A DNA stretch of 40,144 nt from an uncultured Lachnospiraceae bacterium (GTDB lineage: Bacteria > Bacillota > Clostridia > Lachnospirales > Lachnospiraceae), in NCBI GenBank assembly GCA_947631665.1, contig CANRMF010000018.1, forward strand, positions 1 through 40,144, written 5' to 3'. The position numbers and the translations under genes are program-made. The notes under the pieces were generated by a model that was not told where the DNA came from, did not search any database, and saw only the letters and a list, made by a program, of their open reading frames with translations. Shown one piece after another: positions 3,084 through 40,136 of this stretch (positions are counted from its first letter, which is position 1; each line of letters begins with the position of its first letter).

Positions 3084-3095
3084 CTGATACCTCAC

Positions 3096-15641: not shown

Positions 15642-18600
15642 GACCTTTCATTCGGTAATAACCTGCAATCAATTCAACTGCTGCAAACACGATAAAGACT
15701 GCCGGAAATCTGCTTCTTCCGGTCTGCGGCGTGTCGGGCACCTCCAAAATCCGTTCGTCCACAACTTTTACCTTTTGCACTTTTCCCGTATCTTTTACGG
15801 TAATCCGGATTTCTTTTGCCCGCTGATAATGCTCCGGCGCCTGTTGCTCCACAAACGTATAAGTCTCTCCGACCTTCAAAATTCCGTCAAGCAGAACCGC
15901 CCTGCTTTCCGACGTGGTAAATGTCCGAACCTTTCTTCCCTGTTTGTCATAAATGCCATACTGCGCTCCCTTCAGCAGTTTTCCCGTATCCGATGCAATT
16001 TTGGAAAACTCAATTTTAGTCGTGTCATCGTACATTACAATCCGGTTGTCATCGCCGTTGTTATCTGTTTTTGCGCCGTCCTCAAATAAAACCTTTGTCG
16101 ATAGCTGCGCATTTTCCATCACCTTTTTCTCAAGCCTGAATAAAATATCCGGCGCCGTTGCAAAACCGTCGGCAGGCTTTTGTTCCCTTAACGTGTACTC
16201 CATATCTTGCAGAAGTCCGCAGATTACAAGACTTCCGTTTTCATCAAAAGACGCCTCTAAGTTTTGATACCCCAGCGTATCTGCATTGCGGATAAGCGTT
16301 ACGGAAGCCTTATCTCCCGAAACCCAGCTTACAATTTCATGATTTTGACTGTCTGCGACTGCAAGATGACAGCCTGCAACTTTTTTGTCTGAGCCGGTCT
16401 TCATCTTGTCTATTTTTACCTCCGTCTGCGTGTCCTTCATAACTGCTTCAGCCCTGATACGCGCCGTCTGCTGGTCTGCATATTCCAAATGAACCTCCAC
16501 CGGAGTTTTATCTATAAAATAACTGCCGGAGACCGACTCCTCTACAAAATAGTAATCGCCGGAATTGTATGGTAAACCATCGTCTTTCATATGTTCCAAA
16601 CCGGGCGCGTCCTGACCGTCGTCTTTCATATGTTCCAAACCGGACACGTCCTGACCGTCGTCTTTCATATTTTTCAAACCGGACTCGTCCTGACTGTTGT
16701 CGTTCATATTTTCCAAACCAGAGGCGTCCTCGCCGTCCGCTTTTACAGCTTCTTTTGACATCACCGGAACGGAAAACGGAACTGCTGCAATGCCATTTTC
16801 ATCAGTAACCACTGTGGCAAGTTTTTCTCCTTCATTCACAATGACCTCTCCGTTTCTGTCATAAATGCAGTTTTTGGAATAAAACCCGAAGACTGCCCCT
16901 GACACTGCCCTTTCCGTTTTGCCGTCCTTTTTCTGAATGACAATTTCCGTCTGAGGCAGTTTATTTTCCACTGTCAAAATTCCGTCTTTCGTATTTCCTG
17001 AACAGTCCAATACATACTCGTCATACTGACTGTTCCACCGAAACTCCAAATCCCACTTGTTTTCATCGGGAAGCACATATCCGTACAGGGTACGGACTTC
17101 TCTTAATTCATAATGTCCCAGCGGCAGATTGACCGTCACGCCGCCTGTCGACGGATCAAGGCTGTAAGAACAGATGCCCGCGCAGTCACGCTTAAACTCC
17201 GCACCCCTGCCTGTAATAATGGTCGCAACTTTTTCTCCGGCGTCAAACCAGTTTTCACCCTGATTATCCTGCGTCACAATATTTTCCTTTGCATACAGTT
17301 CAAAAATCACATCATTCAAGTATATATCTTCATAAGTAAACTTCCCATGACTTTGGGTGGCGCCGTCGATATTGCCGTCCTGCGTTTTCTCAAATCCGCT
17401 GATGACAGCGCCTTTCTTTTCAAGCGTAAATTTTCCATAAGTCTCATTGTTGAAATACTCACATTCGGCGACCTTGTACTCGCGCCCGTCGGCGTCAACC
17501 TCCGTTTTGTATGATTGTCCGGTTATGACAATTTCAATAACCTTTCCGGCATTGAAAGTCCCCTCAGGGCCCTGCACCTCGCGAATTTTGTACCTCCCCG
17601 CTTTTAACGGCTCATACGTCAGAATTTCCCCCTGCTCGTCCGACACGAACTTATCCACAGTGACAAACCGGTTTCCGTTGCTGTAAGATTGTTTTACAAT
17701 CGTCTCGTTTCCGTTTTCGTCAACACTGAAAATCTGATATACCGCCCCTGCCTTCAAGACAGTTTTCTTTGTCTGTGCGTCTTTTTTGATAATCTTTAAA
17801 TATGCTGTAAAAGACGGATTGTTTAATATATACCGGTAAGTTTTTCCATCTTCTTTGATGTCTGCATAAAAGTCGGATACATACGCTGTTTCATCGGCTC
17901 CCTTCACCTGATGAACAAGATATGTGCCATAGGGCAGGCTTTTGCTCTTTGCATAACCGTCGGCATCTGTCCGGAGATAATCCCTCTCCGTATCCTTTGC
18001 TTTTTCATAACTGCCCGCTTGCGCAAGATAAATCTGAAACTCCGCGCCCGCTTCCGGCTTTGTAATTCCCACAGCGCCGTTTGTCATAATTTTAATCAGC
18101 TCGACACTGCCTTTGATTACCCTGTCCTGAACGCTGTAATCCTTTTCGGCTTTGTTGTATTCCGCCGTATAACTCTGCCCGTCTTCATGGACGGTATAGA
18201 CCGTATCGTTTTTCAAATAGCCTGTCGGCGGAACAATTTCCTTTAAATAGTAGTCTGTTCCGCAGCGGAGATTTTCCGTTTCAAACTGCCCGTTTGCATC
18301 TGTCACATACCGGTTTAACAGAACACTACAGCCGTAATCCTGATATATTCCATACACTGCGCCGGAAAGCGTGGCGTTTCCCTGCGCCGCTCCGGTTTCC
18401 GCATCTTTTTTTACGGCCGTCAGTTTTACCTTTTTATATTGATTCGTCGCCTCCAGACGATACGCTTTTTCATAATTCTGCCTGCCTTCTTCCATGTCCG
18501 GCCACGAACCGTCCACTTTTGTCCAACTGAGCGCTTCCCCGATGGTGACAACCATTCCTTCGGCAATCTTTCCCGTAGCAATCAGGTTTGGATTTCCGGT

Positions 18601-19662
18601 GTCCGTTTCCCTGATCAGATATTGATTGCTGATTTCGTGGAGCTGCTGCTCCAAGTCTTTCTGCGCCAATTCCTCTGCGTCCTGCTTCGTAAGGCTGGCG
18701 GCATACTTCATTCCGTCGTTTTTTAACTGTTCCTTTGCTTTCGTCTTGTCGTCCTTAGACATCTGCGCCAAATCCGAATCGCTGTAATAGTAGTAATCCT
18801 CAGACTGCAACTGATAATCGAACCGGAATGCGATTTCTCCCTTGCTGTCCGTCAGGGCAGTCGTGACAAAACGGGTTTCATCGTCCTCAACATTATCCTC
18901 CTCCGGCGAGCCCCAGCCGTTCGTCCGATAGGAATACAACTCCTTAATATTTTTTGCCTCCAGTTCAAACGCCGCCTTTGACAGCGACTTTCCGTCCTCG
19001 TCCTGTTTATGCAGGGTAATCCTCTGGCGATACCTGATTTTTTTATCGACGCACGCAGGTATCTTTTCGTCCGTTCCGGAATCAATCTGCATCAATCTCT
19101 GCACATACTTCCGGTCTGTTGTCCCGGCATATTCCCATTCGATGACGTCGCAGGTTACAACGTCCTTTTTTGAAAAAATATCTGCATAGACAGAATCCTC
19201 CGGATAGTAACCGGTATTATTTCTTACCTGCCGGATAATATTTTTCAAGCCGTCCTCATCTGTAATTCCTTCCTCCACGCCCCAAATCAGGCATTGCGCG
19301 TAAACCCACGCTTTATTTGCCCCTTTCTTTGTTTTGGCATACCAATATCCTATTTTTGCTTTCATGGACGCCGCCGTATTTTTACTGTCGCTCGACAACT
19401 GCTCCTCTTTCGATTCGTAGACATATCCCGTATGGCAGGATTTTCCCAAGTCCCTGCAGAAAACTGCCTTTCCATTGACCTTCGTTTTCAGCCAGTTTCC
19501 GCTCTCGTTCTTTTTTCCGATTGTCACCGTACCAAGTTTTCCTAAATTGGAAAACGACGCATACCCCGTTGCCGCCTGAACCGTTCTCTCCGACAGTGGC
19601 ATCGCCGTAATCAATAAAATAACCGCTAAGATAACCGTAAATTTTTGTTTTATTTTGTTCAT
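15613..19662 (-). CDS. Thioester-domain, Cna-B (SpaA-type) repeat cell-wall adhesin
   Basis: The 1349-residue surface protein has a signal peptide (1 to about 30, cut near VQA). Next is an N-terminal thioester domain with the reactive pair Cys69 (VFCRDLG) and Gln123 (YAQCLIWG). About eight Cna-B/SpaA beta domains follow, each opening with a Lys-bearing strand (KLTAVKKD, ELIKIMT, LKIIKKD, FTLEKKG, IVIQKKD, VKIDKMK, IEFSKIA) and carrying a conserved Glu in xEx patterns such as LKEIVPP or IREVQGP. These are the usual isopeptide-bond residues. The end is a sorting signal: VPDTPQTG, hydrophobic helix, KGHGKKKK. The ATG at 19662 has GAGGTGA 8 bases upstream; a GTG at 19674 is too close to it. A 13-residue tandem repeat interrupts the sixth domain. 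It is probably a thioester adhesin anchored by the following sortase. Confidence 0.9.
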   Translation of the reverse strand: MNKIKQKFTVILAVILLITAMPLSERTVQAATGYASFSNLGKLGTVTIGKKNESGNWLKTKVNGKAVFCRDLGKSCHTGYVYESKEEQLSSDSKNTAASMKAKIGYWYAKTKKGANKAWVYAQCLIWGVEEGITDEDGLKNIIRQVRNNTGYYPEDSVYADIFSKKDVVTCDVIEWEYAGTTDRKYVQRLMQIDSGTDEKIPACVDKKIRYRQRITLHKQDEDGKSLSKAAFELEAKNIKELYSYRTNGWGSPEEDNVEDDETRFVTTALTDSKGEIAFRFDYQLQSEDYYYYSDSDLAQMSKDDKTKAKEQLKNDGMKYAASLTKQDAEELAQKDLEQQLHEISNQYLIRETDTGNPNLIATGKIAEGMVVTIGEALSWTKVDGSWPDMEEGRQNYEKAYRLEATNQYKKVKLTAVKKDAETGAAQGNATLSGAVYGIYQDYGCSVLLNRYVTDANGQFETENLRCGTDYYLKEIVPPTGYLKNDTVYTVHEDGQSYTAEYNKAEKDYSVQDRVIKGSVELIKIMTNGAVGITKPEAGAEFQIYLAQAGSYEKAKDTERDYLRTDADGYAKSKSLPYGTYLVHQVKGADETAYVSDFYADIKEDGKTYRYILNNPSFTAYLKIIKKDAQTKKTVLKAGAVYQIFSVDENGNETIVKQSYSNGNRFVTVDKFVSDEQGEILTYEPLKAGRYKIREVQGPEGTFNAGKVIEIVITGQSYKTEVDADGREYKVAECEYFNNETYGKFTLEKKGAVISGFEKTQDGNIDGATQSHGKFTYEDIYLNDVIFELYAKENIVTQDNQGENWFDAGEKVATIITGRGAEFKRDCAGICSYSLDPSTGGVTVNLPLGHYELREVRTLYGYVLPDENKWDLEFRWNSQYDEYVLDCSGNTKDGILTVENKLPQTEIVIQKKDGKTERAVSGAVFGFYSKNCIYDRNGEVIVNEGEKLATVVTDENGIAAVPFSVPVMSKEAVKADGEDASGLENMNDNSQDESGLKNMKDDGQDVSGLEHMKDDGQDAPGLEHMKDDGLPYNSGDYYFVEESVSGSYFIDKTPVEVHLEYADQQTARIRAEAVMKDTQTEVKIDKMKTGSDKKVAGCHLAVADSQNHEIVSWVSGDKASVTLIRNADTLGYQNLEASFDENGSLVICGLLQDMEYTLREQKPADGFATAPDILFRLEKKVMENAQLSTKVLFEDGAKTDNNGDDNRIVMYDDTTKIEFSKIASDTGKLLKGAQYGIYDKQGRKVRTFTTSESRAVLLDGILKVGETYTFVEQQAPEHYQRAKEIRITVKDTGKVQKVKVVDERILEVPDTPQTGRSRFPAVFIVFAAVELIAGYYRMKGHGKKKKDER
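16581..16736 (-). repeat. Four 39-bp tandem repeats inside the adhesin gene
   Basis: Four adjacent 39-bp copies (16581-16619, 16620-16658, 16659-16697, 16698-16736) encode 13-residue units of the form SGLEHMKDDGQDx. The two copies nearest the 3' end of the gene are almost identical and the others have drifted. The reading frame is kept. The acidic insert sits in a loop of a Cna-B domain. Confidence 0.9.
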
Positions 19663-19743
19663 GAATTTAATCACCTCGATATAAAATTTTTCATACCGGC
19701 GCGCTTTTGATAAACCGCCTTTACGCAGCCGGCATTTTATGAA

Positions 19744-23391: not shown

Positions 23392-24300
23392 TTAATATGT
23401 GAACAATTGTGACCAATATTTTCTGCCGTTTGCCGCTTTATAATATCCCACTCCAATCTTTGTAAAATTTGCATTTAAAATATTGGCCCTGTGTCCTGCG
23501 CTGTTCATCCAGCCGTTCATCACTTCCTCCGGCGTATTCTGTCCCCACGCAATATTTTCTCCACAACCGCGATAACTGATATTGTATTCGGAAAGAACCG
23601 TACTGAAGCTCGTCCCGTTCGGTCTGGTATGGGAAAAAGACGTCACCGTTTCCTTTGCTCTGGTCATGGCTGCATTTTTTAATGTATTGTCAAGCGTCAC
23701 CGCTCTCAGACCTGCCTTCGCGCGCTGTTCATTGACCAGTTCGACAATACGCGCTACATATTGGCTTTCCGTACTTGTAGGCGCCGCCGTCGTTTCCTCT
23801 GCCTTTTTGGCAGTCGTTTCTTCTGCTTTTTTCGCAGTTGTTTTTTCCTCCTTTTTCGCAGTCGTTTCTTCTGCTTTTTTCGCAGTCGTTTTTTCCTCCT
23901 TTTTCGTAGTCATTTCCTGCGTCTTTTTCGCAGTCGTTTCCTCCTTTTTTTGAGATTTTGCAGTGGTTTGGCTTTTCTTAGCTGATGAATTTTTCTTCTG
24001 TACTTTTTTTACGGTCTTTTTATTCTTTTTTGCCGTTTTCTTCTTTGTGTTCTTTTTTACAGATTTTTTTGTTTTACTTTTCTTCTTTGTCGTCTTTTTT
24101 GCAGTTTTTTTCTTCACAGCCTTTTTGACTGTATCCTTTAAAGCGTCTGCCGCAGAAGTATTACAGTTGTTTCCCACACATGACGTGCGGCCCGCGCAGG
24201 GAACCTGAATAACTACCGCGTCTGCCTGAACCGATTGCATAGCGCCTGCGACCATCAGTATGGACATCGCCACTGCCAGCATTTTTAAAAATTTATTCAT
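23392..24300 (-). CDS. Secreted CAP/SCP-domain protein with Lys-rich repeat linker
   Basis: The 302-residue protein has a signal peptide (about 1-26, cut near VQADA), a short Cys-containing segment (CAGRTSCVGNNC), an extremely Lys/Ala/Thr-rich region (about 58-172) and a C-terminal CAP domain of the YkwD type (about 178-302). CAP hallmarks are VNEQRAKAGL, SFSHTRPNGTSF, GENIAWG, NSAGHRANILN and the terminal YWSQLF. The linker contains six 8-residue units such as KKAEETTA. The basic region probably holds the protein to anionic wall polymers. CAP proteins are common in spore formers and gut Clostridia, but their biochemical activity is unclear. AGGAGG precedes the ATG. Confidence 0.88.
   Translation of the reverse strand: MNKFLKMLAVAMSILMVAGAMQSVQADAVVIQVPCAGRTSCVGNNCNTSAADALKDTVKKAVKKKTAKKTTKKKSKTKKSVKKNTKKKTAKKNKKTVKKVQKKNSSAKKSQTTAKSQKKEETTAKKTQEMTTKKEEKTTAKKAEETTAKKEEKTTAKKAEETTAKKAEETTAAPTSTESQYVARIVELVNEQRAKAGLRAVTLDNTLKNAAMTRAKETVTSFSHTRPNGTSFSTVLSEYNISYRGCGENIAWGQNTPEEVMNGWMNSAGHRANILNANFTKIGVGYYKAANGRKYWSQLFTY
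23783..23935 (-). repeat. 24-bp tandem repeats in the CAP-protein linker
   Basis: About six 24-bp units encode 8-residue repeats alternating between KKEEKTTA and KKAEETTA. In-frame copy-number change would only lengthen or shorten the spacer. Confidence 0.8.
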
Positions 24301-27399: not shown

Positions 27400-27545
27400 T
27401 TTTTTTTTTTGGGGGGGGAGATATTGTATTGGGGTGAAAAGAGATATTTTATTGGGGTGAAAAAGAAATATTGTATTGGAGTGAAAAGAGATATTTTATT
27501 GAGTGAAAAGAGATATTGTATTAGGGTGAAAAAAATATTGTATCC
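27400..27545. repeat. Degenerate 23-bp minisatellite with a T11G8 homopolymer junction
   Basis: After 11 T (27400-27410) and 8 G (27411-27418), about six units of the type GAGATATTGTATTGGGGTGAAAA repeat with a 22-24 bp period; they differ by T/G and A/G changes and in the length of the A-run. The array ends at the terminator of the discoidin-protein gene. The 280-base gap between tcdA and that gene contains nothing else. Confidence 0.9.
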
Positions 27546-27649: not shown

Positions 27650-29905
27650 TTAATCTGCGCTTTGTCCGGTGTAAAGTTTCGCTTCCGGCTGGTATAAACT
27701 GCTGTTCCAGCCATATTCCCTTGGAGATTCCTCATAGAACTTATTACTTACTGCCTGTAAGAGCGGACTGTTTAAAATATCCTGATAAAGGAAATCATGC
27801 GCCTCTACATTTTTGGACATATTGTTTTTATATAGATAACTTGCGATGTCAGCGACAGAAGTCATCAACGGCTTTGCGCTGTAAATAATTTTCTTGTCCT
27901 TCGTAACAATAAACGCCCTGACATAAATGGCGTTACCCAGCAGTTGATTTAACCCGGTCATTGTTCTGGAATAATACGTACAGTCTTTGCTTTCATCCCA
28001 GCCGTCAATAACTCCGAGCGGCGTCGCTTCATATCCATATGCCACGACACTTCCGCCATAATTATTTACTCCTTTATAGCATGGTACGCCATTTGGATCA
28101 TTGCTGAGATTATCATCCAACAAGGTATGATAAGGCTGTAATTTGCTGTTTTCATAATCCCCTGCCACATTTGCCTTGTCAATCGCATAAATCGTACCGT
28201 ATTTTTCTACAGTATACTCCGTACCATCACTTGCCCGGAATGTCGCTCCCTTGTTTGGCGCTTTACATACCGTTCTGAAATTGATGTCATTGACGCCTGC
28301 CTTTGTAGTCGTTTGCATATAGGTCTGAATCTGGAATCCTTCGACCGAAAGAATTTCTTCTGACACAGTGAGCACATCCTCTTCGTTTTTTTTGATTGTA
28401 TCAAGACACTCTTGCGTCCCATACACTGCCAGTTCAAAGATTGAATAGCCCTGCTCTGCCACTCTTGCCTGACACGAAATCCGGATATATCTTCCGTCAT
28501 GTGCTTTGTTAAACACAACATGGTCATATCGGTTTGCCTGATTTTTATTCCTATCAGTAATGACGGCGATGGTCTCAAATACCTTGTCTTCGCCCGCAAT
28601 TTCAATCATATAATCTTTTGCGCTCGCCGCTTCCCATGTGATATCCACTGCACAAACCGGTCTGGAAGCGCCTAAATCAAGGGTAATCCAGTGATTGTCA
28701 CTATCGGCTGCCGTCTTCCATCTGGTAGTAATCTTCTTATCCACCGCATTCCTTGCGGGATGTTCTTCTGTTTCACTATCCGCTGTGATTTCTCCCATGC
28801 CTACATAATCCGTATAATCGTACCATGTCTCATTCCCCGTTTCATCAGTCGGGCCAATTTCTTTCGGAAACGCTTCTGTTTGAGTTGCCTCCTTGTCGTT
28901 AATTGTATAGTCATTGCCATAGGTTAGCGATGACGGTGTTCCAAAAACAGCTACTTCATAAATGGAAACGCCCCACTGTTCCGGAGTGCCATTCATGTAA
29001 AGCATCAGATAACGTGCGGTAACTTCGCTTAAGGAAACCATGTTGTTTGTTTCATCTTCCGCTGTATTTCCAACGGTCGGCATGATACTTTCTTGTGCCA
29101 GTTTCCAAACCTTAGTATCCACTGCTCCGATTGCCGTTGTATCTCCGGCAAGATTGTTGGCATAATAGATGGAATATCCCCCACTTGGGGCATTGTTCCA
29201 TAACGAAACAACTTCGTTAATCTGATATACGCCGCCTAAATCGACATAAATCCATTCGCCGTCTTTTAAGTTGTGTCCCTCATTTTCTGAAGCGGCTGCC
29301 CACCGGTAATTCAGATTCTTTGCTATATCGTCCGATGCAGCGGACTGATCTCTGATTTTTTCCGGACTATAATCGCCTGCCGTGCTCGAAGCAACGACTG
29401 CTGCCGCTTTAGACATCAGATTTTCCTCTGACTCGAACCGGTACTTCGGCTGTTCCGGTTCTGTTCCCCCGGAAACCGTTATAGTGCCTTTTCCGTAAAA
29501 GGATATTTGCTCTTCACCACTGCCCGTTGCTGTAACGCTCAGGGAATGTTCCCCGACAGTTAAGCCATCAGCAAAATCTTTGAAAAAAATATTTAAATGA
29601 TTTGCACTTTTATCTTCTGAGTTAATTATTTTCTCATCAATTTCTACTTGAATCGAATTTGGCTCAATAACACTTTCCCACGCAAAACCAATTCGTTCTC
29701 TTTCAGAAATAGTCATATCGTAAACTCCTGTAAGAAAAGCGCCTGAAATATTTGTACTTGTAATGTTAATTGTATACGTTCTGTTGTTATATGTGCCGGA
29801 AACCGAAGACACTGCGTTTACCCGAATCGGATATCCGGCGGTAGAGCTTATTACAAACGCTATCACACTGAGAACCGCTATTATTTTTTTACACCTGTTA
29901 CTCAT
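27650..29905 (-). CDS. Secreted protein with two discoidin (F5/8 type C) domains and unknown terminal domains
   Basis: The 751-residue protein has a signal peptide (about 1-31, ending VNA). An N-terminal beta domain follows (about 32-145) that resembles the start of the giant CotH protein. Two F5/8 type C/CBM32-like domains lie at about 156-321 (DGEWIYVDLGGVYQINEV to YEVAVFG) and about 363-496 (ITTRWKTAADSDNHWITLDLG to FELAVYG). The C-terminal domain (about 521-725) is shared with the giant protein and contains VEGFQIQT, YGTIYA, YVRAFIV and HDFLYQDILN. No catalytic residues, anchor motif or membrane helix are seen. Discoidin domains usually bind glycans. AGGAG lies 6 bases before the ATG. It is the last gene of the cluster. 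Confidence 0.88.
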   Translation of the reverse strand: MSNRCKKIIAVLSVIAFVISSTAGYPIRVNAVSSVSGTYNNRTYTINITSTNISGAFLTGVYDMTISERERIGFAWESVIEPNSIQVEIDEKIINSEDKSANHLNIFFKDFADGLTVGEHSLSVTATGSGEEQISFYGKGTITVSGGTEPEQPKYRFESEENLMSKAAAVVASSTAGDYSPEKIRDQSAASDDIAKNLNYRWAAASENEGHNLKDGEWIYVDLGGVYQINEVVSLWNNAPSGGYSIYYANNLAGDTTAIGAVDTKVWKLAQESIMPTVGNTAEDETNNMVSLSEVTARYLMLYMNGTPEQWGVSIYEVAVFGTPSSLTYGNDYTINDKEATQTEAFPKEIGPTDETGNETWYDYTDYVGMGEITADSETEEHPARNAVDKKITTRWKTAADSDNHWITLDLGASRPVCAVDITWEAASAKDYMIEIAGEDKVFETIAVITDRNKNQANRYDHVVFNKAHDGRYIRISCQARVAEQGYSIFELAVYGTQECLDTIKKNEEDVLTVSEEILSVEGFQIQTYMQTTTKAGVNDINFRTVCKAPNKGATFRASDGTEYTVEKYGTIYAIDKANVAGDYENSKLQPYHTLLDDNLSNDPNGVPCYKGVNNYGGSVVAYGYEATPLGVIDGWDESKDCTYYSRTMTGLNQLLGNAIYVRAFIVTKDKKIIYSAKPLMTSVADIASYLYKNNMSKNVEAHDFLYQDILNSPLLQAVSNKFYEESPREYGWNSSLYQPEAKLYTGQSAD

Positions 29906-29921
29906 AACAAACTCCTTTCTA

Positions 29922-30101
29922 CTACCCTTCGATGCTAGGGGGTCTTTGTGATCTGGTGGTGCTCGGAATCTCCAGTGATTCGCTCACTACTTCCGATACA
30001 AATTCGCCCGAGATGGGAACAGTCACATCCATGACCGGCTTTTTTATTTCAAATCTTGTCACTTCCATTTCAGGTGTTTCATAGTTCTTTTGATGTTTCA
30101 T
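29922..30101 (-). CDS. Small protein between the two giant secreted protein genes
   Basis: The 59-residue product starts KHQKNYETPEMEVTRFEI and continues with an acidic, Val/Ser-rich half, without signal peptide, helix or cysteine. The block YETPEMEVTRFE has the feel of a conserved motif. I recall similar short proteins (YexPxxEVxxFE) in Clostridia but cannot verify this. The ATG at 30101 has AAGGAG 7 bases upstream, better than the ATG at 30107, which touches it. Its stop lies 16 bases before the discoidin-protein start, so the two are translated from one message. Function unknown; it could be a regulator, chaperone-like partner or peptide precursor. Confidence 0.7.
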   Translation of the reverse strand: MKHQKNYETPEMEVTRFEIKKPVMDVTVPISGEFVSEVVSESLEIPSTTRSQRPPSIEG

Positions 30102-30137
30102 TTTCATTCTCCTTTTTTATGATATTTATGAGTAAAC

Positions 30138-30194
30138 CTCCAAGCCCGTATCAACCAGCCATCTGTAATGGCTGATTGACACAAGTCTTTGGAG
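30138..30194 (-). promoter_or_regulatory. Long RNA stem-loop between the CotH gene and the small protein gene
   Basis: In the minus-strand RNA a stem of about 24 pairs forms from 30194-30168 and 30162-30138 around a 5-base loop. It is built from the core CAATCAGCCAT/ATGGCTGGTTG with G-U pairs, a few mismatches and a closing CTCC/GGAG. No U-run follows, so it is not a classical terminator; an mRNA processing or stability element is more likely. Confidence 0.65.
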
Positions 30195-30212
30195 CACTTA
30201 TAAATCACCGTT

Positions 30213-33200
30213 CTATGAAGACTGGCTTTTTTCCACTGCAGGTTTAATACTATTGCCCCAATTGTAGTCTACTTTTTGATAAAATCCTTTGTATCCACTC
30301 AAATCGAGGTATTCATCCACACGGGTTCCCACATAGGTGTCAATCCAATCATACAGCGTATCAATTTTCTGCTCCGGATACGTATATGCGGTTTCTTTCT
30401 TTAATGCTGCCAGCAATTCTGCCGCCTGTTCCTCTGTAATCGAGCGGCTTGCAAACTGCTCACGGTTTTGGTATGAGTAGCCTCTGCTTGTAGTCGCATA
30501 GTAAATCAAGTCTTCATATACTGATTGAATTGTCTTATATAAAGGATCGTCTGTTGAACTCACATAAGTAGTCCATATCAAAGACTCTCCAATACTGTAT
30601 GCATTCTTGTAAATATTTACAATGTTCAGCACATCATTATATAAGAAATCATGCCCTTCTTTGGTACGCATCTGACGGTTTTTATAAAGATTTTCTGCAA
30701 TTTCATATACATTTACCTCATAAATCCTGTCTCCATAAACCACCTCTTTATTATCCAATACCGCATAGGCTCTGTAACAATAATTGGTCTGCAGTTCCCG
30801 GTACTCATATGCCAGTTTTTTCAGGCTGACCGCATAATAGTAATAATCCTCACTGTTTTTTTCCGTCCAATCGATTGTTTCGGTGGACTCAACGTCAAGG
30901 ACTTTATCATTTGTCGCTGCGCTTTCCCTTGTCATAGTATCTTTTGTAATTTCGCTATCATTACTTGATAATGCAAGAATTGTGCCGTACTGTACTACCG
31001 CATGGATTTTCTTATCTGTTCCTACCATACGGGTGCTTGTTCTGGAAACAACCCTCATAGATGGCATAAACTCTGAAACTCCGCCTTCTTCTTTGTTCGT
31101 ATTCATCTGGAAGCCTTGTACATTGATATCAGTCTCCGGCGTTTCATTTTCATAAATCATTTCCTTCGCAATAGACTGATAATGCGATGCTCCGTCATAA
31201 TAGTGATTTGTGTCGGTTTCATCCTTATTAAAACACCATTTAGAGACGACTTTGACCTTAAATTTCTCACCAACCGTCTGTAATCGTCCGGCAGCGATTT
31301 CTGCTTCTGTAAGCGGTATTTCGTATCTGCCGCCCTCTTCAACGTTTTCAAGCACCGGCGTTCCTTCATTTCCATATTTTCCTTCACCGTCTCCCAGATA
31401 GTAAATATCGTAGACATATCCGTCTTTCTTTCCGGTTTCAGATTCCTCCAGATTAACATATAATTTATCTGCGCTCGGCACGACGCCCACACGTTTAACA
31501 TTTACAATTTCCGGAATATTGACCTGAACCATTAACGGAAGTTTAATATACTCCTCCGGATATTTTTGTGTGTCATAGTAAATTCTCATCATATAATAGA
31601 AGTTCTGAGAGCCGCTTTCTCCGCTATGGGCAATCAGTTTTTCGTCTTTCATGAGACTGTACATTCTCAACTGAATATCATTATCACCGGCATGACCTAC
31701 ATCCCGACCGGAAGGCCCTCCATTGAAAGTTGCGTATGCATCAGGATCCTGCGGCTCAATAACTTTCTTATCCTCGCCCAGAGACGACCTCGCAATTTCA
31801 ATCTTCCAATAATCTTTGCCATCGGTATTCTTTCCTGCAGAATTTAACGGTTTGGAGGAGTCAATCGTCACGGTCATATAGCCTGCATCATAATTTGACG
31901 CATGGGACAGATAGAAGTCACTGGCATCAAAGTAAAATCTTGAATTGAGTACATGATTGGTATCATGATAATAAAACTTCATTTCATTTTCTGTCGGGCC
32001 GGCTACACGGTACCACTCGGATTCATCTGTACACACTCTGTAGGCAACACGTACAAAAATGTGATCCTCTTTATTGTTGAGTTCTACAATATAGTATTTT
32101 CCAAGTCCCCATGCCTGCGCAAAAATCTGTGTCTCATTTGCACCATATCCCCAGTTGGACGTTCCACCCGGAAATACAGTTTCCTCACCGTTCTCATCAT
32201 AGTTCTCATCATACACCAGCGAATATCCATTACCGTTTAACGGTCTGGCAGTCACTGTTTTCGGAAGTTCTTGGTTTGAGCCTGCTACATAATTTTCACA
32301 ATACTCTTTTGACACCTGACCAAACATGAGAGGCGCTTTAAAGCAGCTTACGGTTTTGTCTTTTCCACCCGTTTCTCCTTCACCATCAGTTTCGTCCTCA
32401 CCGCCTGCTTTGCTTTCACCTTCGCTTTCGTTTTCACCGACTGCTTCGCTTTCACCATCGGTTTCGTCTTCACTGCCGGCTCCACCACTTTTTGCGCCGT
32501 CATACGGCATATCCTTTTTGTCAAACAACTTTGCGCACTTCTGGTTATACTTCGTGGAAATCCACAAGTCACCTGAGCCATATCCGTTCGCTCCGGTAAT
32601 GATATCTCTGTAATGTACATCTGTAACTGAAGAATCCAAAACTTTGTATTCAATATGGACTTTTTGATTTGCAATTGGGAAATCCCATGGTTTAGAACCT
32701 GCCCCATCTGTAATCGGCGTCCAGTCCATCTCTGTTTCCTGCCAGAACGGCGTGTCGTCTGCAAAGACTACCACGGTCTCCTTTTCTTCGTTATCCACAT
32801 ACACAACAGCGATTGTCACTGCACTGTCTGAATCAATATGATTTACCTTATCTTCTTCATCTTCGTGTGGCAGCGTTACCTGATAGGTTGGCTTATCATA
32901 TCCCTCAAGTCTGCTCAATTCACTATTTGCAATTCTGCATTTTTTCAGTTCACCATGGTCGGAATACTCAAACTCGAAGTATTTTACCTGACCTTGGAGT
33001 TGTCCTATATCGGTACCACTATTCCAGATACCTCCCGCCGGTGAAAAGATTGCCGTATAAATATTGCGTTCGCTATCCCATTCAATCTTTAGGCTTCCTT
33101 CATAAGCTGCCGCAATATCATAATCCTGCGTATTATTTGTATCCTGATCCAATTCATAAATCGTATGCTTCGGATCAATTACAGCCGTAAAATAGCATAC

Positions 33201-36200
33201 TTTCCTGTCTTTGAATACATGGTCGTGTGTTGCCTCAATTACCTGCCCCGGCAGAACGTTGTGCTCATTCGTCAAGTTATAGTTTATATCATGTGTTCCG
33301 GCAGATGTTTTTCTGTCTGCGTCTGTATATTCCGTTACTGAAATGAGCAGATTGTTATCTGTCGCCAATGCTTTCGTTGCCACTGCCGCTGTTCCGATAT
33401 TGATTACGGAAAAGACAAGCGTAGATGGCTTGCTGTCACTGACATAAGCACCTGTTTTTGTCGTTGGAAGTCCATAGAACGTAAGCTCTGCCTGACCTAC
33501 CGCAATTCCGACTTCTTCTCCATATTCTGCGCCGTCGGAATCAATCACCGGAACAACCCAGATTTCGGTGTTGGATCTTAAATATATTCCATTCTCCGTC
33601 AGATGATAAGAAATGTTTCCATCCCCATCAATCTCATAATCATCACCCTCTTTAATCCATACTACCCTCTCTTTGTTTGTTTCCGGTGCGTTTGGATTGT
33701 AATCATCGCGATAATCATAGTAATGCAGTTTGTATCCATCATTTGCAATCTGCTTTGGATCTGTCCATGTCAGGACGACATGACCGTCTTTATCCGGCTT
33801 TCCATCAGTGGTCTTGTCCGCTACGTATTCCAAGTCAGCAGTTTTGTAATCTTCATTATTCAATTTAACCAGGAACGTTTTTAAAACCTGACTTCCATTC
33901 ATTGTTCCTGAAACTGTGATTGCAAAAATTCTCTCCCGGACATTAACATCTACCGGGAATAGCTCATGGCTCAGATAAATCTGGTCACCCGCATGGTAAA
34001 CCTGTTCGTCTGTATTTCCTGCTGCGCCTTCTGCAACCGGATAAGTAACACCGTTAATCGTAACCTGCGTAGCAGGATTTAGATGAGCTCCAGTACCATT
34101 TTCTGCAATAATTACCCGGAAATAGAGACCATTGTCCGTAATTCTTGGGCCAAAGTTTGCATCTTCAAAGATTTCGTTTCCATTCATATATCCTTTTGCA
34201 TACCACCATGTATCATTATCGATATCCTGTGTTCTTCCGCTAGTCCACTGCGTCCAAACCAGTTTGCTCTCATCATACACGGTCACATAAGTCGCTGCGG
34301 TTGCTGATTTCTGCCCTTCTCTCGTCCGAATGACTGCAAGTCTATGTGTGCCTTCCGGCAGATTTCTCAATGTCACTAAAAGTCTTTGCTGAGCTGCATA
34401 TTCTCTAACCGTAAGATTTTTCTGCTGTATGCCGTCTACATAAATTTCATATTCATATCCTGCCTCTTTTTCGTCCTCTGCCGGTTTCCAGTTTAACACA
34501 ACCGTGTTTTCTGTCTGCGCCAGATATGCGTTTAATCCCTCTACCGGAGGAATGTCGAGTTGTTTTACGACTTTATAGTACATCTCGCAGACTTTTTCTT
34601 CCTGTCCGACCTGATATGTGATAGTCACATGGAAGACTTTGCTGATTTCCTGATCAGATAACTGGAATAGGCTCTGCGCAATCAGAATTCGGTCATTATC
34701 GTAACCTGCATTTGTCCCATCCAGTGTATATTGTGTCCCATCAATATCAATCCTGGTATTATTGTTGTCCCAACCACTGTGTTTAAAGCAAATTTCCAGA
34801 CAAGGAACATCTCCCGGAAATGTGCCTCTTCCACCATCGTTTCTCAGTCCGGCATACCCATCGACACGTTTCGATAATTCAGGATTTACAAACGTTGAAC
34901 CATCTGGGGACAGTTCCATTCCGTAACCGTTATAGTAATACCACACATTTCCATAGACATCTGTATCATGTCCTGATCCATTATTACCGGAACCGGTTCC
35001 GTTATCCCAAAGAATCCATTTATCGTCATCCAGTACCCCTTCCGGCAGATATTTAAAGGAAACCGTATCTGATGTGGCAAGAAGTTTTCCTTCCTGGTCA
35101 TATGCCTCAATGACTACCCGGTGTTCTATATTTTCTTCAATTCCTCCTTCCGGAGTCCATGTAAATGTGCCAGCACCCGTAACGCTACCGACTTCTGTAT
35201 CATCAATTTTTACTTTATAATTACAGCCTGACAGTTGTTTCAAATCTTCTGACGGAACCCATTGGATTACTGCCTGTTCATCTGTAATCTCCGTTACGGT
35301 AACGCCGGTAATGGTATAATCATACTCCGGCGGTACGTCTTTCTTATAGTAGAAAATTGCTTTTGTACCGTTGTGGTCTGTAATTTCTACTTTGTATATT
35401 CCGTTTTTACTTAGAGACTCGCCATGCAGAGAAAACTGCAGTCCATCTCCAGCCACTTCTCCACCTACCGATGTAATGTCGACACCATTGATTACTACAG
35501 ATGCCAGAGGCGGTTCGATGTTTTTGCCCTGCTCAGAGGATTTTCCACTCAAGCCACATTTTAAGATTCCTGTCGTTCCTTCCACGGTACCAGTCGTTCT
35601 GACACCATCAGGATCATAAACATACAAGTTACTGGTTGCATCAATTGGGTCTCCCCAATTAACACCTTCCGTAAGGTTTGAATCTGCTTCAATTTGTTCC
35701 GGAGTCATCGGATCAATTTCCGTAATCGGCTTTGCGTCCAGATTTTCATCAAAGACTGCAACTTCCGTTACCTGAGCACCATATCCTACCTCTTTCGGCC
35801 ATAAAATTCTAACATAGCGCACAGTTGATACTGCAGACGGATCCAACAACTGATTTTCTCTTTCTTTCTGATTAGACTCCACGGAAATCGCAAACGGTGC
35901 AGCGTTTCCGTTTTTCTGACTGTTAAATTCCTGTTGGCTTACAGTCGCCACGGTCGTAAACTTTTTATTATCTGTGGAATACTGGACAAGCTGCGCCTCC
36001 GCTCCGGCATTCTGCGGGCCACATCCGTCGTTATCTGACCTGAACCAGACAGAAACACTGTCAATCTGCGCTGCCGGATACTGCTTTCCTAAGTCAATCG
36101 TAAAATAAGTCCCCTCGAAATTTATTTCCGGAGTCGCAAAATCACCTGCCGTTGTTCCCAGTTTACCGTCTGTAATACTTCCTGTTCCCTCAGCACTGCT

Positions 36201-39200
36201 ACCATTTTGAGCGCCATCTTTATCTACCAGTTTGCCATCTTCCAGTCTGGAAATCCAATAGGACTTCTCATATGCGAGATTATATTTGCCTTCCTGTTGC
36301 AGCATTTCTTCCGGAAACAGGTCTGTCGTCGCATTAACGGTTACAGATACCGATTCCGTCTTTTCTGAAAGATATTCCTGATAATCTGCTGCTGCGCAGA
36401 CCTGATATTCTCCGATGAATAAACCTTCAATCTTGAAGTTTCCATCTGCATCGACTTCCACATCATCTCTGCGCTCACCATTCAGATAAATGACATATGT
36501 TGTGCCTTCCACTGCATCTGTTGCAGGCACTACTTTTCCGGTAATTGTCCGGTCTGTGTCACTCTTTACGTCTGTTAAGGTCGGAGCCGGAACAGACGTC
36601 GGCGTCACGGTCTGCGGATTGTCTGCAAGCACGGCAATTTCCGTAATCTGCATTCCATATCCTGCCACTGCAGGATAATATACCCTGACATACCTGACTG
36701 CCTCTGTTTCTGCGGTTTGGTTTGCAGAATCCATCGTATAACGGACTCCATCATATTTTCCGTCATCGGTCGCACTAATCCATCCGTCAGCCTCATCATT
36801 CCATTTCAGGCTTTCCGCCTTAAGTTCATTGCCCGGTTCCACGGTAATTTTTCTGTTTACAATTTCATGGTACGTAATATCATCCGTTGAGTATTGGATT
36901 TGATAGGATTTTCCGCTGACCGAGGTATTATTCTGTGCATTCCGATACTGGATAAAGATATTATCCAATGAAGATACCTTATAATAATCTCCCAAATCAA
37001 TCGTAATCGAAGCCGGTTTTCCTTCTCCGTTATTCACCGCTGAAGCACACAGCGCACCATATCCTGCCGGTGTAGAGCCTTGGTCTGTGCTGACCACACT
37101 CGTATCCAAATTGATTTTTCCATCGTTGATATTTGTAATAGAGCCCTCGCCAATCCGTACATTTGGAATCGCTGTTTTTCCTTTAGCAAGGTTTGTGACG
37201 GTGCTGTCGATTTTTGCAGAGAGCTCATCATCGATGTGCCATTCTTTGTCCAAAAATGCCACACGCTCTTGCATATAAGTCTTAAACGCTCCAATCGCTG
37301 TGTCCATGTCGGCCCACTCATTGGAATTGCTCCATCCATCGCCATTCTGTCTGCCCTGGAATGTCCAGCCTGCGCCGCCCTGATCTTCTGAAAGATAATT
37401 TCTCGTTGCTGAGGCGTTAATTTCCGCTCTTAAGGTATCAATGGTTCCATCTTCTGCATATATCTGTGTAATCTTGTCATGCATTTCACGATACTTTGCA
37501 ACGACCTTGTTTTTAAAGTTATCATTTTGCATCAGCGCTTTGAACCATGTCAGTTCCTGCGCCGTCATATCTGTCGCTTTTGCGTCCTTTACATTGCCGC
37601 TGGATAAATCATGATCCCACATCGGCCCTGCATAGATTTTTCTATCTTTTACATAAAATCTCGTAGAACTTTGGGCGATATCTTTGGTCTGGAATAATTC
37701 ATTCATCAGATAATCCGCCACAAAGGAGTCCACATCAATATATTGGGAATACTTATCGTAGTCCCCTGCCGCTAAATCTGTTTCAAATTGGTCAAACAGC
37801 GCCTTAATATCCGTAACCTTTTTTTCTGCAAACGTCTGGTCGCCCACTTTGTTCGTTACCGCTCCACTCTCATCTACGACATTGATATCATCTTCTGTCT
37901 CCGGAGAGCCGAAAATAAATCGCAGGCTTTGATTCAACGGACTATTGCCTTGCTTGTTTTCATCCTGTTTTCCTGTCGCTTTTGTCCAGAATCCTCCATT
38001 TTCTCCAGTCCAGAAATATAATTCGTTATCAATTCCATGGATAACTTCCAACTCCACAAGGGCGTCGGTATTATAAGTTTCGGTATTTTCCGAATCAATG
38101 TCGACTCTGCTCTCTCCTGCTTCCACGGATTCTACGAGCAGATAGTTTCCTAAGTATACACCGTTAAAATATAAATCAACGAAACGGTTTTTACTGTTAT
38201 ATGTGAGTCCTGCATCATATCCAAGATCTAATGCAAGTTTGTTTCTGATTAATGTTTTATCAAACGCATTTGCCAGAAGGCTCCATTTTTTTGCTCCCTC
38301 AGCGTTGTCGTTTCCTTCATAATTGGATAAACCTAATAAATTTTTTGCCTTACTGAAACTGATATTGTAGGCTTTCTTTTCTGCGCCTGCGGTAGAGTTT
38401 CCCCGCACCTTAACGGTTGTCTTTGCAGTATCTTCAAAGACATCCGGAAAACTTCCTTTCTGATCTACTACGGTAAGGGAGGCTGTTTTCTTTCCGCCGT
38501 TTACGCCATCTTTTTCCAATAACTTTTTGCCTTCACCACCGGCGCCTGCCTTTGGCGTGAGGGAAGTATCGTCCGTCTGAATATAAATCTGCGCAATATC
38601 ATTATTGCCGCCTGCACTTTCCGGCAGATTGACAGAAGCCTCTAAGGACTGTGCTGTCTCTGTTCCATCCACCATAGCCGTTATGGTAATCTGATGCGTT
38701 CCCGCTTGAATGCCTGCATCCGTCAATTCCTTACAGGTAAAGTAATCGCCGCTTCCCTGAATTGAAATCTCCGTAGACTTTCCGTCTACATATACTTTGT
38801 AGCCGGAAGCTCCGTCAATATCATCAAATTTGACAATATATTTTCCTGTATACTTTGAATAATCATTGATTAAGAAATTGCTGACGTTATTCGGCGTCTG
38901 AATATAGACTGTATATTCATAGGTATCCGTTCTGGCCGGTGTCTCTGTTCCATCATCAACCTTTGTACCCACGATAAGACCGTCACGCTCATTATAATAG
39001 AATGTCTCTTTTACTTTATAAACATTCAGTCCTGACTGAAATTCAGAATATTTTACCGTAGATTCCGCTGCTCCTACTGCAGTGCTATCTCTCCTTTGAT
39101 ACTTGAGACCGCCGTTAAAGTAAATCTCAATTGCAGAACCCTGCGAACCGGTAGTAACGGAGATTCCTTCCGCTTCAAACTGAATTTTGGCATCAAGATA

Positions 39201-40136
39201 CAGATTTCCTTCCGTCCGATATTTTGCCCCGACACCCAGTCCTGCAGTAAGATTCTGATCGGTCAGCCACTCTATAGTAGGCTCCTCTTCCACAGGTTCT
39301 ACGCTGACATTAGTAATATGGAATGTCGCACCGGCATTGCTATCTTTGTTCAGCGCCATGTAGAATTCAGCGCTTGTCTGAGCATCCTTTGTCGTAAAAG
39401 TCCCTGTTAGCTGTCCTGCCACATCTTTCTGCAATGTTGTTTCTGAAAGTTGGGATTCATTGCTTTCGTGCGCAGAAACAGAAACGCCGTCTTTGTCTGC
39501 TGAAAGCGTAATGGTAAATTTATATTCTTTTTGCGGAGTAAGATCTTGAACAGTTGTTTTTGCCTGAATAGCCCAAATGTCTCCTGTTGCAACAGTCTTC
39601 TCTGTCTTAATCCAAAAATCATTTTGTTTGTCCTGATTTTTGTATGTTACATCGGTTTCTGATCCGGCATAAACCTGCCATGCGCCATTCTCTGACCACA
39701 CACCTGTCTGCGCCGATATCCAAGAGTCGTCCTCTTCGACGGTGACGGTAAGAGGTAATGTTTGAGTATATTCTAATTTTTGCACACTTGTCAGTACCAA
39801 TACATAACTGCCGCCTGTCAGATTCAACGCATCCAAATCAACTGCGGTTAAATTGCCCCCATTGCCTATTGTTGTTATAGTTTGCGTTGCATCTCCTGTT
39901 TGAAGTTCAATTTTTATCTTATCACCTATCAAGCCCCCATTCCATGCAAAATGAAATCCTTGTTCCGGCAACATTTCGAGTACTAATGTGTCTATTATAA
40001 CATTACTCTTATCAATCATATAACTTTTGTTTCCTGATTGTAGTGTCAGTTCCTCCGCGCTTACAGTCTTTGGCGTATAACTGATACTGGTAATCACCAT
40101 CGCCAATGCTAAAAGTACGGATAGCACTTTTTTCAT
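30213..40136 (-). CDS. Giant secreted CotH-kinase protein with discoidin, Fn3 and CBM-like modules
   Basis: The 3307-residue protein has a signal peptide (1-27, ending TVSA). In order (approximate): an N-terminal domain related to that of the 751-residue protein (30-135); a CBM4/9-like module (142-285); an Ig/Fn3-like part (430-510). A CotH kinase domain follows (about 515-970) with KVRGNST near 580, WSLLANAFDKTLIRNKLA, VDLYFNGVYLGNYLL and MWDHDLSSG near 841. Then come discoidin domains (984-1171 and 1286-1463); two copies of an unnamed module (1708-1860, 1958-2093) separated by Fn3; a CARDB-like domain (2219-2336); an acidic 12-residue repeat (about 2549-2593); and the C-terminal domain shared with the 751-residue protein (from 3008). 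CotH proteins phosphorylate proteins in spore coats. No wall anchor is seen. The start ATG is 8 bases from the window edge, so its ribosome site is outside. Confidence 0.88.
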   Translation of the reverse strand: MKKVLSVLLALAMVITSISYTPKTVSAEELTLQSGNKSYMIDKSNVIIDTLVLEMLPEQGFHFAWNGGLIGDKIKIELQTGDATQTITTIGNGGNLTAVDLDALNLTGGSYVLVLTSVQKLEYTQTLPLTVTVEEDDSWISAQTGVWSENGAWQVYAGSETDVTYKNQDKQNDFWIKTEKTVATGDIWAIQAKTTVQDLTPQKEYKFTITLSADKDGVSVSAHESNESQLSETTLQKDVAGQLTGTFTTKDAQTSAEFYMALNKDSNAGATFHITNVSVEPVEEEPTIEWLTDQNLTAGLGVGAKYRTEGNLYLDAKIQFEAEGISVTTGSQGSAIEIYFNGGLKYQRRDSTAVGAAESTVKYSEFQSGLNVYKVKETFYYNERDGLIVGTKVDDGTETPARTDTYEYTVYIQTPNNVSNFLINDYSKYTGKYIVKFDDIDGASGYKVYVDGKSTEISIQGSGDYFTCKELTDAGIQAGTHQITITAMVDGTETAQSLEASVNLPESAGGNNDIAQIYIQTDDTSLTPKAGAGGEGKKLLEKDGVNGGKKTASLTVVDQKGSFPDVFEDTAKTTVKVRGNSTAGAEKKAYNISFSKAKNLLGLSNYEGNDNAEGAKKWSLLANAFDKTLIRNKLALDLGYDAGLTYNSKNRFVDLYFNGVYLGNYLLVESVEAGESRVDIDSENTETYNTDALVELEVIHGIDNELYFWTGENGGFWTKATGKQDENKQGNSPLNQSLRFIFGSPETEDDINVVDESGAVTNKVGDQTFAEKKVTDIKALFDQFETDLAAGDYDKYSQYIDVDSFVADYLMNELFQTKDIAQSSTRFYVKDRKIYAGPMWDHDLSSGNVKDAKATDMTAQELTWFKALMQNDNFKNKVVAKYREMHDKITQIYAEDGTIDTLRAEINASATRNYLSEDQGGAGWTFQGRQNGDGWSNSNEWADMDTAIGAFKTYMQERVAFLDKEWHIDDELSAKIDSTVTNLAKGKTAIPNVRIGEGSITNINDGKINLDTSVVSTDQGSTPAGYGALCASAVNNGEGKPASITIDLGDYYKVSSLDNIFIQYRNAQNNTSVSGKSYQIQYSTDDITYHEIVNRKITVEPGNELKAESLKWNDEADGWISATDDGKYDGVRYTMDSANQTAETEAVRYVRVYYPAVAGYGMQITEIAVLADNPQTVTPTSVPAPTLTDVKSDTDRTITGKVVPATDAVEGTTYVIYLNGERRDDVEVDADGNFKIEGLFIGEYQVCAAADYQEYLSEKTESVSVTVNATTDLFPEEMLQQEGKYNLAYEKSYWISRLEDGKLVDKDGAQNGSSAEGTGSITDGKLGTTAGDFATPEINFEGTYFTIDLGKQYPAAQIDSVSVWFRSDNDGCGPQNAGAEAQLVQYSTDNKKFTTVATVSQQEFNSQKNGNAAPFAISVESNQKERENQLLDPSAVSTVRYVRILWPKEVGYGAQVTEVAVFDENLDAKPITEIDPMTPEQIEADSNLTEGVNWGDPIDATSNLYVYDPDGVRTTGTVEGTTGILKCGLSGKSSEQGKNIEPPLASVVINGVDITSVGGEVAGDGLQFSLHGESLSKNGIYKVEITDHNGTKAIFYYKKDVPPEYDYTITGVTVTEITDEQAVIQWVPSEDLKQLSGCNYKVKIDDTEVGSVTGAGTFTWTPEGGIEENIEHRVVIEAYDQEGKLLATSDTVSFKYLPEGVLDDDKWILWDNGTGSGNNGSGHDTDVYGNVWYYYNGYGMELSPDGSTFVNPELSKRVDGYAGLRNDGGRGTFPGDVPCLEICFKHSGWDNNNTRIDIDGTQYTLDGTNAGYDNDRILIAQSLFQLSDQEISKVFHVTITYQVGQEEKVCEMYYKVVKQLDIPPVEGLNAYLAQTENTVVLNWKPAEDEKEAGYEYEIYVDGIQQKNLTVREYAAQQRLLVTLRNLPEGTHRLAVIRTREGQKSATAATYVTVYDESKLVWTQWTSGRTQDIDNDTWWYAKGYMNGNEIFEDANFGPRITDNGLYFRVIIAENGTGAHLNPATQVTINGVTYPVAEGAAGNTDEQVYHAGDQIYLSHELFPVDVNVRERIFAITVSGTMNGSQVLKTFLVKLNNEDYKTADLEYVADKTTDGKPDKDGHVVLTWTDPKQIANDGYKLHYYDYRDDYNPNAPETNKERVVWIKEGDDYEIDGDGNISYHLTENGIYLRSNTEIWVVPVIDSDGAEYGEEVGIAVGQAELTFYGLPTTKTGAYVSDSKPSTLVFSVINIGTAAVATKALATDNNLLISVTEYTDADRKTSAGTHDINYNLTNEHNVLPGQVIEATHDHVFKDRKVCYFTAVIDPKHTIYELDQDTNNTQDYDIAAAYEGSLKIEWDSERNIYTAIFSPAGGIWNSGTDIGQLQGQVKYFEFEYSDHGELKKCRIANSELSRLEGYDKPTYQVTLPHEDEEDKVNHIDSDSAVTIAVVYVDNEEKETVVVFADDTPFWQETEMDWTPITDGAGSKPWDFPIANQKVHIEYKVLDSSVTDVHYRDIITGANGYGSGDLWISTKYNQKCAKLFDKKDMPYDGAKSGGAGSEDETDGESEAVGENESEGESKAGGEDETDGEGETGGKDKTVSCFKAPLMFGQVSKEYCENYVAGSNQELPKTVTARPLNGNGYSLVYDENYDENGEETVFPGGTSNWGYGANETQIFAQAWGLGKYYIVELNNKEDHIFVRVAYRVCTDESEWYRVAGPTENEMKFYYHDTNHVLNSRFYFDASDFYLSHASNYDAGYMTVTIDSSKPLNSAGKNTDGKDYWKIEIARSSLGEDKKVIEPQDPDAYATFNGGPSGRDVGHAGDNDIQLRMYSLMKDEKLIAHSGESGSQNFYYMMRIYYDTQKYPEEYIKLPLMVQVNIPEIVNVKRVGVVPSADKLYVNLEESETGKKDGYVYDIYYLGDGEGKYGNEGTPVLENVEEGGRYEIPLTEAEIAAGRLQTVGEKFKVKVVSKWCFNKDETDTNHYYDGASHYQSIAKEMIYENETPETDINVQGFQMNTNKEEGGVSEFMPSMRVVSRTSTRMVGTDKKIHAVVQYGTILALSSNDSEITKDTMTRESAATNDKVLDVESTETIDWTEKNSEDYYYYAVSLKKLAYEYRELQTNYCYRAYAVLDNKEVVYGDRIYEVNVYEIAENLYKNRQMRTKEGHDFLYNDVLNIVNIYKNAYSIGESLIWTTYVSSTDDPLYKTIQSVYEDLIYYATTSRGYSYQNREQFASRSITEEQAAELLAALKKETAYTYPEQKIDTLYDWIDTYVGTRVDEYLDLSGYKGFYQKVDYNWGNSIKPAVEKSQSS
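32355..32490 (-). repeat. 36-bp acidic linker repeat in the giant CotH gene
   Basis: Three to four degenerate 36-bp units encode 12-residue Gly/Glu/Asp/Ser repeats (GESEAVGENESE, GESKAGGEDETD, GEGETGGKDKTV). The frame is kept. It is probably a flexible linker between the CARDB-side modules and the C-terminal third. Confidence 0.8.

Follow-up and report, generated by a model that had tools for sequence, protein, structure and literature searches.

What may be the function of a domain that closes two adjacent secreted proteins, otherwise unlike in their middle parts? The question is raised by a contig of an uncultured Lachnospiraceae bacterium (GenBank assembly GCA_947631665.1, contig CANRMF010000018.1), analysed over positions 1 to 40,144 of the forward strand; this whole stretch is hereafter the window. 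Its reverse strand encodes a giant protein of 3307 amino acids (aa), with a predicted CotH kinase domain, and a short one of 751 aa. A preliminary description of the same DNA had proposed that the two proteins are related at both ends, and that the C-terminal module is a retention, export or assembly signal. Both open reading frames (ORFs) are found where that description had placed them (Table 1). The module, here called C-terminal domain (CTD), is found in relatives at the ends of secreted enzymes of widely differing kinds, in numbers reaching about 60 per genome, and therefore probably holds them on the cell or in a common complex.

Judged by their sequences, the CTDs of the giant and of the short protein are homologous. 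They align in blastp with an E of 5e-10 (31 of 83 residues identical), and their Smith-Waterman score of 136 is reached by none of 1000 shuffles, the 99th percentile of which is 56. A profile made from 74 other CTDs, both window rows being excluded, matches the giant with E 9e-23 and the short protein with E 2e-13; the higher scores obtained by the pair with profiles containing both rows are matches by construction. The common domain was rightly seen in the preliminary description, but understated. Domains of the family measure about 175 residues. No Pfam family matches over either window CTD, nothing in NCBIfam comes near its cut-offs for the window pair, and a scan of 76 CTDs against NCBIfam retrieved six families (best E 0.001), each through a single CTD, none of them convincing. 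By sequence, the domain hence has no convincing counterpart among named families. The predicted fold (pLDDT 95) is a fibronectin-III-like beta-sandwich completed by a C-terminal helical hairpin; the model of the CTD of the short protein has a pLDDT of 81 and a pTM of 0.80. Many fibronectin III rows were matched in structure comparison, and to their sandwich the CTD adds the hairpin and a terminal Y-x-W segment. The fn3 family of Pfam has no match over the window CTDs; its sole match in the pair, at residues 1864-1939 of the giant, is below cut-off. Nearly invariant positions of the CTD look structural in nature.

The window's own genome, assembled into 74 contigs (2.0 Mb), encodes a third carrier. 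This ORF of 1420 aa resembles a GH18-type chitinase and terminates in the CTD. This CTD was used as query (E 1e-3) on 60 genomes, 23 of which, own genome included, belong to the window's genus. Matches were found in 21 of these 23 genomes and in none of the 37 others, the most numerous being in G004 (41), G006 (39), G007 (37) and G009 (35). In G010, G015, G018 and G021 the best match is a partial domain only. A profile of 22 CTDs (E 1e-5) was run on 299 genomes of the family Lachnospiraceae, representing 298 genera, and found the domain in two genera, those of the own genome and of G342; a profile search of 391 genomes of the class gave no convincing CTD elsewhere. Three genomes of the second genus (G342, G721 and G722) feature 58, 66 and 59 matches, respectively. 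Assemblies of named relatives are labelled Eubacterium sp., Eubacteriaceae or Lachnospiraceae, and isolate names suggest rumen, rabbit and mouse gut as sources.

One relative of the domain, and possibly a second, was met in these searches. The ORFs with partial matches in the four genomes mentioned (L021-L024, 437-455 aa) end in a shorter relative that lacks the helical hairpin, and the two that were scanned are GH16 enzymes. An unnamed beta domain, marked by the motifs GAQVR, GLRF, ARPY or TATPY, and RSIYQVA, is found in L200-L213 (G465) and L177 (G590), with 14 matches in one genome. This clostridial domain is perhaps a distant relative of the CTD; hhalign aligns the two at 22% probability, in a plausible register.

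In the loci fetched, the CTD lies within 13 residues of the C-terminus in 145 of 157 complete carrier ORFs (132 of 142 unique ones). The other ten unique carriers continue for 74 to 243 residues after the domain; six of them are giants, three are of the short type, and one comes from the second genus. Two CTDs are arranged in tandem in three carriers. Signal-peptide-like N-termini, called by a simple ad hoc rule, were found in 108 of 115 complete carriers, against 196 of 618 complete non-carrier ORFs of the same loci. LPxTG-like motifs are absent from the last 60 residues of all 142 unique complete carriers, which rules against these being sortase-anchored proteins.

The bodies joined to the CTD were scanned in 40 carriers, that is 39 of 48 body-cluster representatives and the GH18-like ORF of the own genome. 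Seven of the nine representatives left out (the window pair and five giants) were scanned separately, and the largest cluster, of 22 members, is represented by its longest member only, a giant. Among the families listed (25 of 48), F5/8-type domains were found in at least 8 carriers, GH18 in at least 6, CBM6 in 5, CotH in 4, GH81 and CBM5/12 in 3 each, GH43 and GDSL in 2 each, all these being lower bounds; GH115, GH5, GH16, S8 peptidase, M64 peptidase and LRR_5 were seen at least once. Such bodies are too varied for one substrate. The profile search that the preliminary description had suggested has retrieved the domain from secreted multi-domain proteins of varied kinds, in C-terminal position and often in gene clusters. 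Other secreted proteins of the same loci end in different domains. A loose group of large secreted proteins, F5/8-like at the start and fn3-like at the tail, adjoins CTD genes in 18 of 79 loci (L090 11587-18834 and 29 similar ORFs).

The CTD is also found next to cohesins. G721 and G722 encode a protein of 407 residues, with a signal-peptide-like start, in which a CTD at residues 36-206 (E 1e-45 and 2e-45) is followed by a cohesin scoring above cut-off in both genomes (in the L245 copy, residues 276-406, 35.5 bits versus 24.1). In G722, the gene precedes those for two further cohesin proteins and a 1525-aa dockerin protein. According to excerpts of PMC12484212, known anchoring scaffoldins couple cohesins to SLH modules or sortase signals, and type I dockerins (PF00404) are, like the CTD, single modules set on dozens of varied secreted enzymes. 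Attachment is suggested by the occurrence of the CTD joined to a cohesin, where a scaffoldin would have its anchor, and on carriers whose activities are unrelated. Also in its favour, no dockerin and no cohesin was matched in G004, G006, G007 and G009, which have the most CTDs in the window's genus.

The reading preferred here, held with about as much confidence as doubt, sees in the CTD a lineage-specific module for attachment, comparable in action to those of the dockerin, SLH or WxL type. CTD proteins would exit the cell via the ordinary signal-peptide route. The folded CTD, usually C-terminal, would then bind a receptor and hold the protein either at the surface of the cell or within a complex bound to it, and varied polysaccharide-active and other enzymes would be kept together near the cell. 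By the family models tried here, the carrier enzymes would seem free and unrelated. About 60 secreted proteins per genome share one unannotated module in these uncultured gut bacteria, a number on the scale of a cellulosome. If the CTD is an attachment module, the view of how these fibre degraders hold their enzymes changes, and a possible tag for surface display becomes available.

The genes of the giant and of the short protein are separated by a small gene of 59 codons, absent from the preliminary description. A GGAG ribosome-binding-like site, read from the sequence, precedes it. A profile built from 15 small genes of such cassettes matches 20 of 26 genomes, in two genera; the G014 match is partial and falls in a longer ORF. 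Short-type CTDs are listed in 15 of the 23 genomes of the window's genus, and the order giant-small-short is found in all 12 genomes in which upstream sequence is available (in G011 the sequence available for the giant covers just its last 98 residues), the other three stopping at a contig edge. A tree of 101 CTDs was drawn with a midpoint root. In it the 15 short-type rows cluster together (100/99), and the 11 giant-type rows form another group with one row of the second genus (96/90). The two groups are joined (100/99) apart from the other 74 rows. The second-genus row is L078, the placement of which is unsure because of its long branch; a small gene is found directly before the L078 ORF too. 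The giant, with its CotH kinase, and the short protein may thus be said to carry two old versions of the CTD, each conserved separately. Since both are encoded together with a small protein, they probably form a fixed pair, which may be the core of the system.

A strong RNA stem-loop lacking a U-tract is predicted in the gap between the giant and the small gene (-42 kcal/mol, z -6.5, none of 200 shuffles as strong). Similar predictions, with z from -4.3 to -6.5 and no U-tract, were obtained for 8 of 12 giant/small-gene gaps, all eight at least 97 nt long. Excerpts of PMC4423207 describe cip-cel type operons, in which stem-loops separate co-directional genes encoding large extracellular proteins; for C. 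cellulolyticum they report a preferential link between RNA processing sites and genes of protein-complex subunits, and stem-loop-type elements that set the ratio of the subunits. The stem-loop described here comes from computed folding. Giant and short might likewise be made in unequal amounts, via processing at this element.

Several observations weigh against the attachment reading and the part assigned in it to the cassette. No receptor for the CTD was found, and the CTD itself is unmatched in G019, a genome of the genus assembled in a single contig. CTDs are acidic (median isoelectric point 5.3, n=76), hence direct binding to an anionic wall is not favoured. Sortases are encoded by all 23 genomes of the genus, which means that the cells have another route for anchoring proteins. 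Dockerins are found in 5 of these 23 genomes, three of the matches being in the own genome, which has two cohesin matches besides. In the second genus, G721 and G722 have 5 and 6 cohesin matches and three dockerin matches each, versus 66 and 59 CTDs, and G342 no cohesin and one dockerin match. Given these few dockerins and cohesins, the CTD is not simply their replacement. Short-type CTDs are missing from the listing for 8 of the 23 genomes, and in G009, for all its 35 CTD matches, neither a short-type CTD nor the small gene was detected, so that other carriers may not need the cassette. As to the stem-loops, the remaining 4 of 12 gaps (45-57 nt) are unstructured, and a control set of 119 ordinary co-directional gaps (80-160 nt) contains 25 with a z below -4, 16 of these without T-tract; the excess is modest evidence, because the eight gaps come from related species and are not independent.

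By the features tested, the CTD is neither a dockerin nor a WxL domain; SLH modules were covered by the Pfam scans only. Type I dockerins have a small, helical, calcium-binding fold. The CTD, of about 175 residues, is unlike them in sequence, and the predicted beta-sandwich with helical hairpin also rules against this identity; PF00404 matches neither of the window proteins with E allowed up to 1, and is not among the families listed for the 40 carriers. WxL domains and their gene clusters, as described in excerpts of PMC10599100, are similar in that a lineage-limited C-terminal domain is associated with co-encoded secreted proteins and with surface attachment, the latter being conjectural for the CTD. 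Two Trp-x-Leu motifs are found in none of 76 CTDs, which rules against a WxL domain, and one motif is found in four; WxL has no match in the window pair, and a Pfam scan of nine neighbouring window ORFs, no further search for such partners being made, revealed neither DUF916 nor DUF3324.

Among functions other than attachment to the cell, it is unlikely that the CTD is a carbohydrate-binding module (CBM) by which enzymes reach a substrate outside the cell, for instance polysaccharide of plant or fungal walls. The domain is also found on proteases, GDSL proteins, an LRR protein and the cohesin protein, some carriers have CBMs of their own (CBM6 in 5 of 40, CBM5/12 in 3 of 40), and the nearly invariant positions look structural. 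A structural cap, stabilizing large secreted proteins or guarding their C-terminus and binding nothing, would agree with the very common fold, with its many fibronectin III rows, with the location at the extreme C-terminus and with the unrelatedness of the carriers. It becomes quite improbable when one considers that the domain is restricted to 2 of 298 genera sampled and yet expanded to about 60 copies, that other secreted proteins of the same loci end differently, and that CTDs are found in tandem and, in the cohesin protein, at the N-terminal side. Of the roles listed in the preliminary description, retention and assembly fit best. Export fits badly: the terminal place in 145 of 157 ORFs would be expected of an export or sorting signal, cleaved or read in secretion, but the carriers have signal-peptide-like N-termini (108 of 115), and complete CTDs also occur in tandem, 74 to 243 residues before the end, or N-terminally on the cohesin protein, which makes this function hardly credible.

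A narrower form of the attachment reading sees in the CTD the dockerin-like partner of a dedicated cohesin-like scaffold receptor, hence a second type of cellulosome. The dockerin-like spread across enzymes speaks for it, as does a CTD protein of SIG293 and Tb.RUG.215 (L109 9431-10513, L120 9470-10513) with a putative cohesin-like domain, the gene of which immediately follows that of a dockerin-terminated protein of ~1788 aa. The likeness to cohesin is slight (14 bits, hhalign 0.7%), the loci read showed no candidate for a scaffold bearing repeated receptors, and the predicted beta-sandwich is not a dockerin fold; we regard this form as distinctly doubtful. Attachment by the CTD could also be part of a larger scheme, to which we assign a low probability. 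Giant, small and short proteins would be the core of an undescribed, non-cellulosomal extracellular complex of rumen and gut Lachnospiraceae, in which the receptor is built or organized by the paralogous CTDs of giant and short and phosphorylated by CotH, with the small protein as dedicated partner and the stem-loop setting the ratio; dozens of enzymes would plug in by canonical CTDs, and the CTD-cohesin adaptor would bring in the remaining dockerin proteins.

The N-terminal domains of the pair had also been described as common, which is not established. Of 1000 shuffles, 289 attain their pairwise score of 32. With a profile built from the five members of the short N-terminal domain family, the giant N-terminus ranks above 174 of 175 background windows, at a probability of only 36.6%; the sole window outscoring it (in L092) also matches the profile (hmmsearch E 8e-4). 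The N-termini of five other giants and six other shorts do not match the profile (probabilities 0.1-3.8%), and among seven other shorts only that of L164, itself one of the five profile members, has the domain. With no significance in pairwise comparison, a low profile probability and other giants and shorts unmatched, the likeness is possibly a remote homology outside the conserved system, and not an established common part. The idea that both ends form one system finds no support.

The giant is composed of a signal peptide, a weakly matching N-terminal domain, the CotH kinase domain (Pfam E 8e-33, 114.7 bits versus a curated cut-off of 23.8), two F5/8-type stretches (F5_F8_type_C E 2e-9), other beta domains, several of which fall below the Pfam threshold, the CTD and a C-terminal extension. 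RGNST at residue 578 and WDHD at 840 are motifs that we take to be relevant to the kinase role of CotH. The extension is kept across species: of 11 other giants, 7 are matched by phmmer, with E between 2e-13 and 5e-4. In the short protein, signal peptide and N-terminal domain are followed by F5/8-type domains (F5_F8_type_C E 5e-28, two stretches) and the CTD. Cellulosomal CotH proteins, in excerpts of PMC12484212, are similarly secreted, multi-domain and provided with an attachment-type module, which is here the CTD and not a dockerin.

Table 1. Features of the giant-small-short cassette in the window.
Feature	Position	Strand	Basis
Giant secreted protein, 3307 aa	30213..40136	-	ORF and Pfam
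Giant N-terminal domain, residues 29-140	39717..40052	-	36.6% by profile, not significant pairwise
Predicted CotH kinase domain of giant, residues 575-958	37263..38414	-	Pfam
Giant CTD, residues about 2999-3187	30576..31142	-	profile without both window proteins, E 9e-23
Giant post-CTD extension, about 120 aa	30216..30575	-	phmmer
Giant/small-gene gap with predicted RNA stem-loop, no U-tract	30102..30212 (stem-loop about 30130-30200)	-	folding
Small gene, 59 aa	29922..30101	-	YETPEMEVTRFE near N-terminus
Short secreted protein, 751 aa	27650..29905	-	ORF and Pfam
Short protein N-terminal domain, residues 31-150	29456..29815	-	small family, 5 members
Short protein CTD, residues about 514-738	27692..28366	-	profile without both window proteins, E 2e-13

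A second class of small genes, related to the small gene of the window, was noticed in other loci (L165 8988-9164, L162 19022-19213, L121 1362-1541). Their products end in the motif GD-x(3)-NP(W/F)-x-x-LF, which is found also right after the signal peptide of six neighbouring small secreted proteins, in L121, L162, L165 and L173; 11 ORFs carry it in the loci scanned.

Tandem repeats are scattered along the window. Units of 36 bp are located inside the giant gene (32351-32481), units of 23 bp 3' of the short gene (27418-27543), and units of 24 bp at 23785-23950. The window also hosts a pilus-like locus (14910-19674, reverse strand), in which a sortase gene adjoins the gene for a 1353-aa protein with four SpaA pilin-type domain stretches; units of 39 bp are repeated within the latter gene (16576-16737).
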